From positions 1 through 34,727 of the IMG/VR virus record IMGVR_UViG_3300031539_000155: DNA of 34,727 nt; one strand, 5' to 3'. The position numbers were made by a program, and so were the translations under genes. Below the pieces are notes generated by a model. The model was given only the letters and a program-made list of their open reading frames with translations. It was not told the DNA's origin and did no database searches. The DNA is from a virus. Of the stretch, positions 3,527-14,993 are shown piece by piece; the first letter of the stretch is position 1, and every line of letters starts with the position of its first letter.

Positions 3527-4177
3527 TCATTGCGAAATATTGTAAGGGGTTAATAAAAGGTGAGGTTGAGTTCCAATTGTTGATTTCAACCTACATATAA
3601 ATGACAAATATGGTGCCCATTTGTGACGATCAAAGCACGTTAATGGGTGACATTTTCGACAAAGAGTGATTAAATTAGATGGATGATTATTTTTCTTGTT
3701 ATAATCAATGTGGTGTACACAGAATTTTTTATCTGTTTCTATTTTATAGCAAATATTACAAGTAAAATTATCTCTTTCGCGAATTTGATATTTAAGTCGA
3801 TTATTGAACTCATGTGAATATGGTTCACGAGACTTGCCACCCTTCCAACCTGGGTGATTTTTACCTGATTTAGCTCTGGAGTTTTTTTCCCTTGCTTCTT
3901 CTGACATTATGCGCCCTTTACCAGCAACGCTTAATTTTTTTCGCACCTCAATTCTTTTGGCGGGATTTAAATTCCCTCGCATCCTCAATGAGAGCTTTAA
4001 TTTTGTTTCTGGACTACACGGTTTTCTTTTTTTGGGTGGCGAACATTCCTTTTTTAATTTTTTTATATAGGATTTTAATGAAAATTCTCGACTTGCGGAT
4101 TGTTCATAAATTTCCAGCCTTTTTATTAATGCTAATTTTTCTTGTTTTGTTAAAATCTTATTTTCCAATGATTTCAT
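3527..4177 (-). CDS. HNH endonuclease with NUMOD3-like N-terminal motifs
   Basis: This 216-residue protein has a basic N-terminal half with NUMOD3-like DNA-binding motifs, one around SPETKLKLSLRMRGN (residues 55-69) and one around MSEEAREKNSRAKSGKNHPG (91-110). The C-terminal HNH nuclease has zinc-binding pairs C140/C143 and C173/C176, the metal-binding histidines H155-H156, and a downstream Asn. These features match free-standing or intron-borne homing HNH nucleases. It is one of the only two genes I accept on the minus strand, and it lies in AT-rich DNA unlike the flanking regions. Both facts suggest recent arrival as a mobile gene. No Shine-Dalgarno site is obvious before the ATG at 4177. 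No split gene surrounds it, so it looks free-standing rather than intronic. Confidence 0.85.
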   Translation of the reverse strand: MKSLENKILTKQEKLALIKRLEIYEQSASREFSLKSYIKKLKKECSPPKKRKPCSPETKLKLSLRMRGNLNPAKRIEVRKKLSVAGKGRIMSEEAREKNSRAKSGKNHPGWKGGKSREPYSHEFNNRLKYQIRERDNFTCNICYKIETDKKFCVHHIDYNKKNNHPSNLITLCRKCHPLTCFDRHKWAPYLSFICRLKSTIGTQPHLLLTPYNISQ

Positions 4178-5874: not shown

Positions 5875-5899
5875 CATAAAACCGATATAGGAGGTGTTT

Positions 5900-7000
5900 A
5901 TGGTATTACAAAAGGCTGTCCCCCAAATGGCCTATTTAAAATTGGGGATTTACGGTGAAGCAGGGTCAGGAAAAACCTTCACTTCAAGCAAAGTTGCCCT
6001 CGGACTTCACGGATTCATCAAGGCTAAAAAGCCCATCGGATTCGCAGACACGGAAACGGGAAGTGATTTTGTTCTGCCGATGTTCCGGGAAGCAAAAGTT
6101 GAGTTGGTTACTGCCAAAACCCGAGCCTTCGCTGATCTTCTCACCATCATTGACGAATCAGAGAAAGATTGCTCGGTCCTCATTATCGACAGTATAACTC
6201 ATTTCTGGAATGAGCTACTCACGGCCTACCAGGAGAAACACAATCTTAATCAGATCACGCTCCGGCATTGGATTCCATTGAAGCAGACGTGGAGGCAATT
6301 CACAGACAAATTCATTAATTCAAAGATTCACATTATTCTCGCTGGGCGCTCTGCCTTTATCTGGGATGATGTTGAAGACGAGGAAGGAGTTAAGGAACTC
6401 AAGAAAACAGGGACAAAGATGCGGGCAGAGACAGAAATGGGCTATGAGCCGAGTCTCCTGGTCGAAATGGAACACGTGAGGAAGTCGGCAAGAATAGGTG
6501 GAGGCTGGATTAATCGGGCATGGGTTGTTAAGGACAGGTTTAATGTCATCAACAGCCAACACTTTGATATGCCTACCTTCGAGAGTTTTCTTCCGCATAT
6601 CGAAAGCCTAAACCTGAATGGTGAACATATGGCAATCGATACCACCCGGAATTCACAGGGAATGTTCATAAACGATAGGTCCGGAGCTGCCTACATTCGG
6701 AAACATGATGAGTTGGTCGAGAAGATCAAGGCAGAAATTCACATCGCTTATCCAAGTCAGAACTCGGAACATAAGACAGAGCGGCTGAATTTGATGAAAG
6801 AGGTTGCCGGAACACGCTCATTTAAAGAAATCGAACACATGAAAAACGATATGCTTGAGGTTGTATTTGAAACACTCCAAGCCTTTAATGCACCTGCTAT
6901 TGTGGACTCAGAAATCCAAGAAGCGGTAGTACAAATTGAAAATGGAATTAAAGAGGTTGAAGAAGGCTTAAAGCCGAAAGCAAAGGAGAAGAAAAAATGA
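5900..7000 (+). CDS. AAA/RecA-fold ATPase, Sak4-like single-strand annealing/recombination protein
   Basis: The start is the ATG at 5900, five bases after a perfect AGGAGG site; an in-frame GTG at 5894 overlaps that site and is unlikely. The 366-residue protein has Walker A GEAGSGKT at residues 19-26 and Walker B-like VLIIDS at 93-98 followed by THFW. This is the AAA_24/Sak4 pattern of phage RecA-fold proteins that bind single-stranded DNA and promote recombination. A C-terminal helical, charged region follows. The next gene, joined by ATGA, encodes an SSB-like protein, and Sak4 proteins are known to work with phage SSBs. Role in recombination-dependent replication or repair is inferred from this pair. 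Confidence 0.75.
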   Translation: MVLQKAVPQMAYLKLGIYGEAGSGKTFTSSKVALGLHGFIKAKKPIGFADTETGSDFVLPMFREAKVELVTAKTRAFADLLTIIDESEKDCSVLIIDSITHFWNELLTAYQEKHNLNQITLRHWIPLKQTWRQFTDKFINSKIHIILAGRSAFIWDDVEDEEGVKELKKTGTKMRAETEMGYEPSLLVEMEHVRKSARIGGGWINRAWVVKDRFNVINSQHFDMPTFESFLPHIESLNLNGEHMAIDTTRNSQGMFINDRSGAAYIRKHDELVEKIKAEIHIAYPSQNSEHKTERLNLMKEVAGTRSFKEIEHMKNDMLEVVFETLQAFNAPAIVDSEIQEAVVQIENGIKEVEEGLKPKAKEKKK

Positions 7001-8188: not shown

Positions 8189-8649
8189 ACCATACCGAAG
8201 AGCTATCAAATATCCTTCTTATCAAGCAATATTTCATTAATTATCTTAAAAACAATAACAACGAATTAGGGCTTTTTGAGTTTGGGGTAGACCACAGAAG
8301 GTTTGATTTATTTTTGGTCAACGCAAATCAAAAACGATTCCGGGGGTTTGAATTTAAAGTATCTCGTTCAGATTTCCTGGCCGATAAAAATTCTGGCAAA
8401 TGGAAAAAATACCTCAACTATTGTCACACGTTCACTTGGGTTTGCCCCGATGGATTAATCCAGAGAAATGAGGTTGAACCCCCCGCTGGTCTTATATGGG
8501 TTTCAAAAAAAGAAAATCGGAGTTGGAGATATTGGAAAAAATGGGTGAAGCGCCCAGGTAATACAGGAGAGATTCCAAGAGATAAATTCGACAAGATAAT
8601 TTTGCTTTTCATAGACAGGGTGAAATTCAGGAAAGGGGATTTCTACTAA
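8185..8649 (+). CDS. MmcB-like PD-(D/E)XK nuclease family protein
   Basis: The start is a GTG at 8185 that shares bases with the upstream stop. Residues of about 35-110 carry RRFDLFLVN, then FRGFEFKVSRSDFLADK, then KWKKYLNYC and GLIWVSK. This order matches the MmcB group of DNA-repair-associated proteins, whose core is a PD-(D/E)XK nuclease fold; D41, E56 and K58 are the expected active-site residues and all are present. It probably acts on DNA in replication or repair. The 154-residue length fits the family. A second PD-(D/E)XK protein lies at 12601-12906. Confidence 0.7.
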   Translation: MNHTEELSNILLIKQYFINYLKNNNNELGLFEFGVDHRRFDLFLVNANQKRFRGFEFKVSRSDFLADKNSGKWKKYLNYCHTFTWVCPDGLIQRNEVEPPAGLIWVSKKENRSWRYWKKWVKRPGNTGEIPRDKFDKIILLFIDRVKFRKGDFY

Positions 8650-8989: not shown

Positions 8990-9254
8990 ATGGGGAATAG
9001 ATAAAGAAATAACATTGTGCAAACCCTTGCCGATCAGCAAAAAGAAAAAAATAAAAGTTGACGCCTGTATTGCCCCACTTGTTCAAGCGCTTAATGATTA
9101 CGGAATTGAAACAATCGCTTGTTGTTGTGGTCATGGGAAAACAGGATTTTCTTATATCAGGATTCACCCGAAAAATTTACTGTTTACTGTATTCGATGAC
9201 ACATTAACCACACACCTGCAATTTCCTTATGAAAAGAGGGGGGAGAAGAGGTGA
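8982..9254 (+). CDS. Small conserved phage protein with CCCGHG motif (paralogue of 2952-3248)
   Basis: I choose the ATG at 8982, not the in-frame ATG at 8973, because the AGGAG site abuts the earlier codon, and because the resulting MCKWG start is the usual beginning of this phage family. The 90-residue protein has KVDACIAPLVQALNDYG and CCCGHGK, and is clearly related to the protein at 2952-3248. The Cys/His cluster may bind metal. Function in the family is not known. It lies directly before the replication initiator gene and overlaps its GTG start. Confidence 0.75.
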   Translation: MCKWGIDKEITLCKPLPISKKKKIKVDACIAPLVQALNDYGIETIACCCGHGKTGFSYIRIHPKNLLFTVFDDTLTTHLQFPYEKRGEKR

Positions 9255-10186
9255 ATAGACCTCCAGCATTTCAGTTTTATCCGAAAGATTGGCTTGATTT
9301 TAAAGTCATGCGAATGAGCTATGAAGCACAAGGTGTGTATATACGGATTCTCTGTCATATGTGGATAGACTCAAGAGATCAGTGTTCGATCATGAATGAT
9401 GATAAGGCCATTGCTGGAATGCTCGGAATATCGACAAAGAAGTGGCAAGTCATTAAAAAAGAGATTCAATATGATGGGGATTCATTATTACGAAAAAGAG
9501 GAAAGAAACTTGTTTCAAATCGTTTAAAAAAAGAAGCAAAAAAATTACAAAATTTTCACCGATCTCAACGAGAAAAGGGTAAGAAATCCGCAGAAAGTCA
9601 GTTTTTAAGGCGAACCACGGCTCAGCCACGGTTGAACAACGGTTCAACCACGGCGCAACCGGAAGACAACCCTTTATCTTCATCTTCATCTTCAACTACA
9701 TTAAATAATAAAGATAAGATTCTCACGAATCTTTTAATCGAACAAATCAGGCAAAACGATCCAAAGGCAAAAGCCCCAGAAAAGGATTCAAGTCTTTATG
9801 TGAAGTGGGTTGATCAGATACGTCTTTGCCGGGAACAAGATAAGAGATCCGAATCAGAGATTGAGGTTGCCATCCGATTCTCACAGGAAGATGATTTTTG
9901 GAAAGGGAACATCCTGTCCACAGCAAAGCTCAGAAAGCAAATGCCGACACTTCTGCTCCAGACTCAGAGATTTAAGCCAGACGAAATAGGCAAGGCTCCC
10001 CCACGAGAGAAATCCCCGGAAGAGAATAAGCGATTGGATCTCATCGAAAAGAGGCGATCCGAATTGATCGCAAAGCATAAATTTGATTTAGGCAATGCCG
10101 ATACGCTTGAGAAGAAAGAGGCTATTCAGGCATTGATCACCACACAAGTTGCCACCTACTCTCGGCAGCTGGAGGGGGAGAAATGA
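9251..10186 (+). CDS. DUF1376 replication-initiator-like protein
   Basis: The 311-residue protein starts at a GTG behind GGGGGGAGAAG. Its first 95 residues, beginning PPAFQFYPKDWLDFKVMRMS and including YEAQGVYIRILCHMW, are the DUF1376 domain, a winged-helix-like module of phage replication proteins related in layout to lambda O. A low-complexity linker (residues of about 120-155, with SSSSSS) separates it from a helical C-terminal region that would contact the helicase or loader. The linker DNA holds four 11-bp repeats and an AT-rich stretch (see 9615-9658), as expected for an origin inside its own initiator gene. It is probably the replication initiator of this phage. Confidence 0.8.
   Translation: MNRPPAFQFYPKDWLDFKVMRMSYEAQGVYIRILCHMWIDSRDQCSIMNDDKAIAGMLGISTKKWQVIKKEIQYDGDSLLRKRGKKLVSNRLKKEAKKLQNFHRSQREKGKKSAESQFLRRTTAQPRLNNGSTTAQPEDNPLSSSSSSTTLNNKDKILTNLLIEQIRQNDPKAKAPEKDSSLYVKWVDQIRLCREQDKRSESEIEVAIRFSQEDDFWKGNILSTAKLRKQMPTLLLQTQRFKPDEIGKAPPREKSPEENKRLDLIEKRRSELIAKHKFDLGNADTLEKKEAIQALITTQVATYSRQLEGEK
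9615..9658 (+). repeat. Four 11-bp iteron-like repeats, candidate replication origin
   Basis: Four direct repeats follow each other without gaps at 9615, 9626, 9637 and 9648: CCACGGCTCAG, CCACGGTTGAA, CAACGGTTCAA and CCACGGCGCAA. The period is 11 bp, about one helical turn and not a multiple of three, so it is not a by-product of a repeated peptide. The repeats also contain an 8-bp inverted repeat, GGTTGAAC/GTTCAACC. An AT-rich stretch (about 9670-9730) lies directly downstream. This layout resembles the iterons and unwinding region of the lambda origin within gene O. Confidence 0.65.
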
Positions 10187-14882: not shown

Positions 14883-14885
14883 CCT

Positions 14886-14948
14886 AGTCTTTTCCCCCTC
14901 TTTTTTAGTCTTTTCCCCCTCTTTTTTGTAAATCCCCCCCCTTTTTTT
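14886..14948 (+). repeat. Polypyrimidine tract with perfect 21-bp tandem duplication
   Basis: Bases 14886-14906 are repeated exactly at 14907-14927 (each starts AGTCTTTTCCCCCTC and ends with six T). A third pyrimidine run, eight C then seven T, follows at 14934-14948. The tract lies between the early genes and the sigma-like gene, in a 111-base gap. It could be a termination or pausing element, a protein-binding site, or a site of replication slippage. A similar six C then six T run follows the stop codon at 7713. Confidence 0.6.
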
Positions 14949-14993
14949 AAAAAACCCAATAACGGTGGATACTATTCATATGAAGAGGCAAGA

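Follow-up and report, generated by a model that had tools for sequence, protein, structure and literature searches.

A phage theta-replication origin of the lambda O and pSK41 kind appears to lie embedded within the coding sequence of its putative initiator, a reading to which we assign a probability of roughly 0.85. The evidence was obtained from a 34,727-nucleotide stretch of viral DNA, referred to here as the window, and from relatives of one gene within it. This gene encodes a protein with an N-terminal domain of the DUF1376 type, a "domain of unknown function" present in many phages and prophages, where its genes are often labelled hypothetical or "primosomal". A first-pass annotation had proposed a replication origin inside the gene, and both DNA-level conservation among relatives and homology to lambda O support that proposal as a reading. 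The features on which the argument draws are the following:

9251..10186, + strand: putative replication initiator gene, 311 aa with a GTG start (open reading frame, sub-cut-off Pfam match to DUF1376, PHROG replication families)
9281..9616, + strand: winged-helix DUF1376-type domain, residues 11-122, proposed to bind iterons (AlphaFold2, fold matches)
9615..9625, + strand: iteron 1, CCACGGCTCAG (read from the sequence, Tandem Repeats Finder)
9626..9636, + strand: iteron 2, CCACGGTTGAA (read from the sequence, Tandem Repeats Finder)
9637..9647, + strand: iteron 3, CAACGGTTCAA (read from the sequence, Tandem Repeats Finder)
9648..9658, + strand: iteron 4, CCACGGCGCAA (read from the sequence, Tandem Repeats Finder)
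9635..9952, + strand: region resembling the lambda O C-terminal part, residues 129-234, proposed to recruit the helicase (tblastn, PHROGs)
9655..9671, + strand: two CAACC half-sites, still at 11-bp intervals and reaching the edge of the AT-rich stretch (CAAC...CAAC element as in homologs)
9672..9694, + strand: CTTCAT 6-bp tandem repeat, start of the proposed melting element (Tandem Repeats Finder; hexamer and heptamer repeats are likewise placed in relatives)
9672..9730, no strand assigned: AT-rich stretch, proposed DNA unwinding element (75% AT, stability minimum of the gene)

The first-pass annotation described four head-to-tail 11-bp repeats that do not stem from repeated amino acids, followed directly by AT-rich DNA, and each part of this description was borne out. 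Tandem Repeats Finder reported a period of 11 with 4.4 copies at 9613-9660, and 9-10 of the 11 bases in each of the four copies (9615-9658) agree with the consensus CCACGGTTCAA. The array is the top lag-11 block of the 34.7-kb window, with 28 of 37 positions identical, a match that 300 dinucleotide-shuffled versions of the window never reached; among 3000 shuffles of the gene itself, none attained 28/37 at lags of 9 to 25. Synonymous-codon shuffles that keep the protein reached the lag-11 score of the array in only 18 of 10,000 trials, indicating that the repeats are independent of the encoded peptide. Immediately 3' of the repeats, AT content rises to 75% (9672-9730) versus 58% gene-wide, and the stability minimum of the gene, computed in 50-bp windows, begins exactly at 9672, the 50-bp stretch from that position falling within the least stable 0.3% of the window.

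The array also lies where it had been placed with respect to the protein, in the linker between two domains. AlphaFold2 predicts the N-terminal 125 residues as a confident winged helix (pLDDT 92), followed by a low-confidence linker without secondary structure at approximately residues 124-152 (pLDDT below 50 at 133-152), with helices resuming from residue 153; the linker coincides with the iterons and the beginning of the AT-rich DNA. The fold of the N-domain matches predicted DUF1376 phage proteins with best TM scores of 0.72-0.78 and E values down to 1.6e-5, and the window protein shares with its homologs the conserved N-terminal motif FQFYPKDW. The Pfam profile PF07120 (DUF1376) scores 24.3 bits, under its 30.1 cut-off, and the Pfam search returned no other match, hence none to RepA_N. 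The best PDB folds for the N-domain are the N-domains of staphylococcal plasmid initiators, the matches being weak (E ~0.05, TM ~0.45); a PDB profile search by sequence returned nothing relevant, and NCBIfam yielded no match. Homology to the C-terminal part of lambda O extends over residues 129-234 (tblastn E=1e-6, 31% identity), and the PHROG matches of the protein comprise DnaD-like helicase loader, replisome organizer and O-like families. Among the scanned window proteins, no helicase or helicase-loader gene, including P-like loaders, was recognised, and small unannotated genes remain.

Conservation of the repeats at the DNA level, which the first-pass annotation had put forward as a check, was assessed on close homologs collected through a conserved N-domain peptide (28 non-redundant genes, the window gene included). 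CAAC...CAAC pairs spaced by 11 bp occur 27 times in these genes, against 3.9 +/- 1.8 expected from 500 synonymous shuffles (maximum 10), with 16 of the 28 lacking a pair at that exact spacing. No other spacing from 8 to 15 bp is comparably enriched, the runner-up being 12 bp (4 versus 1.0). As in the window, homolog arrays often end with CAAC right before a pyrimidine-rich repeat. For fine-scale conservation, no near-identical relatives were found, contig L002 being an identical copy of the window region.

The same organization extends to the wider family. The family set, consisting of DUF1376 genes found by N-domain profiles only together with genes from named phages, comprises 155 non-redundant genes; the collection was scanned with two subsets, a mixed DUF1376 alignment (A3) having proved too heterogeneous. 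Autocorrelation of linker DNA was compared with synonymous shuffles, using 159 other genes from the same loci as a control. At lag 11 the DUF1376 genes show a mean z of 2.14, with 31.6% of them reaching z>=3; signal was also found at lags 22 (20%), 7 (27.7%) and 14 (23.9%) and weakly at 6 (9%), versus at most 1.9% of control genes at every lag. The 11-bp block starts at a median of nt 322, and in 13 of the 14 genes carrying both blocks the 7-bp block begins between -13 and +38 nt from the end of the 11-bp block. The usual 7-bp unit is TAACCAA or TAAACCA, and many DUF1376 genes (e.g. L266, L275-L315, L336) show runs of these units immediately after the iterons, where they may constitute a single-strand loading element. 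Relatives with iterons number 56, and in 43 of them (9.9 expected) the 50-mer of lowest stability in the gene begins 0-120 nt to the 3' side of where the iterons start.

Iteron sequences differ by subfamily (GTTCAACnnCG, GCGAACGCAAT, GCAAATGCAnn, CCAGTCGGTTA and ATGCCAACCCA) while their spacing stays constant at 11 bp, and they track the N-terminal domain more than the C-domain. The correlation between iteron and N-domain similarity, controlled for the C-domain, is 0.21 (0 of 400 permutations), compared with 0.12 (p=0.03) for the C-domain controlled for the N-domain; physical linkage could account for part of the N-domain association. In some phages the DUF1376 gene adjoins an annotated DnaC-like loader or DnaB gene. 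One locus stands apart by eye: in a Candidatus Peribacteraceae assembly (L015, 5983-6951), the linker of a DUF1376-type initiator carries an apparent HNH-like cysteine-rich insert, with GGTTCAACC sites within and after it. As read by eye only, this insert recalls the origin-directed nuclease of phage ICP1.

The link between spacing and gene family was also recovered blind, by scanning all viral contigs for three GGTTSAAC sites at a set spacing. At 11 bp the scan returned 25 contigs, and in 22 the sites fall within a gene encoding a DUF1376-type N-domain; independent cases are fewer than 25 because seven of the contigs are near-identical to each other. A spacing of 10 bp returned four contigs, none with the match in a DUF1376-type gene, and 12 bp returned 59, of which two fall in DUF1376-type genes. 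The larger count at 12 bp was considered as counter-evidence and rejected, since the other 57 matches lie in other genes, those examined encoding repeated peptides (VEPx and GSTx, for example). Of the 25 contigs with 11-bp spacing, three lack a DUF1376 profile match: L034 has hits to O-like and primosomal PHROGs, L035, without any family match, has a linker of the same style, and L019 carries a GGTTSAAC array at 11 bp (~3911-3950) in an ORF without family match, being the sole match of the blind scan without initiator-like context.

Taken together with the domain homologies, these observations lead us to infer that the protein binds the iterons, melts the DNA and recruits a helicase, and that the locus acts as an origin. 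In the mechanism we propose, the DUF1376 winged-helix domain would bind the 11-bp iterons at 9615-9671, at approximately one site per helical turn, so that initiators would be aligned along one face of the DNA. Their assembly would melt the weak stretch of 6-bp repeats and AT-rich sequence 3' of the iterons (9672-9730), and the lambda-O/DnaD-like C-terminal domain would then recruit the replicative helicase. The host is proposed as the source of this helicase, given that the window itself contains no recognised helicase or loader gene. A broader version of this scheme, which we advance tentatively and at slightly less than even odds, holds that DUF1376 proteins are a family of initiators carrying a two-part origin in their own linker, in which 11-bp duplex iterons that covary in sequence with the N-domain are followed by 6- or 7-bp repeats, TAACCAA among them, acting as a sequence-specific element for single-strand loading comparable in role to DnaA-trios. 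If so, the family would possess a portable origin-specificity cassette, swapped between phages.

The embedded-origin reading is itself weakened by the incomplete spread of the signal, with z>=3 at lag 11 in just about one DUF1376 gene in three and 11-bp CAAC pairs missing from 16 of the 28 closest homologs, and by the failure to recognise a helicase or loader gene in the window. Other accounts of the array must be weighed against it. The array might provide binding sites for the initiator or another repressor solely for the regulation of transcription or copy number, with the origin elsewhere. Sequence alone cannot separate a regulatory from an initiation array, and single GGTTSAAC sites also occur elsewhere in the window, at 8472 and 27427. 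However, the array sits deep within the gene and is followed by its least stable DNA, in the window as in 43 of 56 relatives, the neighbouring 6- and 7-bp repeats are unexpected for an operator, and no second initiator gene was recognised, leading us to consider a purely regulatory role improbable. The GC-skew minima that the first-pass annotation had suggested for locating the origin lend no support to this site; skew is uninformative here because it is positive throughout the window, with no turning point, and the plausible genes share one strand almost without exception. A pyrimidine-rich intergenic tandem repeat at 14885-14951 (two perfect copies of the 21-bp unit TAGTCTTTTCCCCCTCTTTTT) was considered as a rival origin; no recognised initiator adjoins it, and it is an unsupported candidate.

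Functionless tandem duplication by slippage in a low-complexity linker is a still less probable source of the repeats. Repeats are tolerated in disordered linkers, and simple ones abound in the homologous linkers, but slippage does not predict a fixed 11-bp spacing with subfamily-specific sequences, let alone an additional constant spacing of 7 bp; within a reading frame, periods divisible by three should prevail, and the 12-bp arrays found and examined in other genes are peptide repeats. We give the least credence of all, scarcely any, to the repeats being a by-product of a repeated linker peptide kept for the sake of the protein. TTAQP does occur twice in the window linker, and several relatives have linkers of the GSTxVQPxxN type, yet a period of 11 is no multiple of a codon, peptide-preserving synonymous shuffles destroy the signal (18/10,000 in the window; mean z of 2.14 in the family), and GTTSAAC is found in all three reading frames of the linkers, with 11, 10 and 5 instances.

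Elsewhere in the window, several features were observed in their own right. An HNH endonuclease gene with a NUMOD3 motif (3527-4177), likely a homing endonuclease, lies on the minus strand between neighbours on the opposite strand, in the AT-richest part of the window. Two separate YopX-family genes occur on the one contig (4682-5137 and 14136-14522), and an AAA_24 ATPase (5894-7000) has a Sak4-like recombinase match.

Origins within initiator genes are a known kind, as in lambda and pSK41. What appears to be new is that the DUF1376 family widely carries such putative origins, with 11-bp iterons followed by 6/7-bp repeats; in open-access PMC text we found no description of an embedded origin for DUF1376. 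If the embedded-origin reading holds, the family gains a likely function, and sequence would place the origin within ~100 bp in elements whose repeats are clear. The co-evolution of initiator domain and iteron likewise becomes directly testable, because iterons vary by subfamily while their spacing is fixed at 11 bp.

The reading would also provide a testable position for an origin in Escherichia coli. In the Rac prophage of strain K-12, the DUF1376 gene ydaU has a linker with AT-rich hexamers and degenerate repeats of the GTTCAA type and, unlike the window gene, is followed by ydaV, encoding a putative ATP-binding protein. An active origin, oriJ, has been reported for Rac (PMC3945230). Our literature search found no text mapping oriJ to ydaU, and its location inside this gene is therefore a prediction. 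Among Rac-type prophages (L179, L180, L043) ydaU looks modular, the SA53 gene having the N-domain and linker in common with K-12 and a different C-domain, and the 442/2 gene having only the C-domain in common.

Among characterized systems, lambda O and its origin offer a close parallel, with iterons in the middle of the O gene and an AT-rich element beside them (PMC7466680). The description of the window as a lambda-O layout in a different initiator family proved apt, because the C-terminal half of the protein is homologous to lambda O (E=1e-6, residues 129-234); in lambda O, too, the least stable 50-mer, from nt 437, is 3' of the iteron at nt 349. The two nonetheless differ in several respects: the N-domain of the window protein is of the DUF1376 type, its match to lambda O being confined to residues 129-234; the known lambda origin region, used as a positive control in the same kind of autocorrelation test, shows peaks at lags 20-24, whereas the window iterons are 11 bp; and no P-like loader was recognised beside the window gene. 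The RepA of PLE satellites, in which origin iterons covary with a DNA-binding N-domain that is separate from the C-domain (PMC8263062), shares with DUF1376 relatives the co-variation of iteron and N-domain, but it has a RepA_N domain and three iterons of ~30 bp (PMC8263062), unlike the DUF1376-type window protein. In pSK41 Rep, a RepA_N protein, an N-domain of ~120 residues binds four Rep boxes located centrally within rep, where the origin encodes the linker, and relationships of the RepA_N family to DnaD have been discussed (PMC5703833). The missing Pfam RepA_N match sets the window protein apart from pSK41 Rep, and although staphylococcal initiators are the top PDB folds for its N-domain, the match is weak (E ~0.05, TM ~0.45). 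The likeness in layout lies in the domain plan and in a candidate origin within the central linker of the gene, and pSK41 Rep is probably as close a precedent as lambda O.
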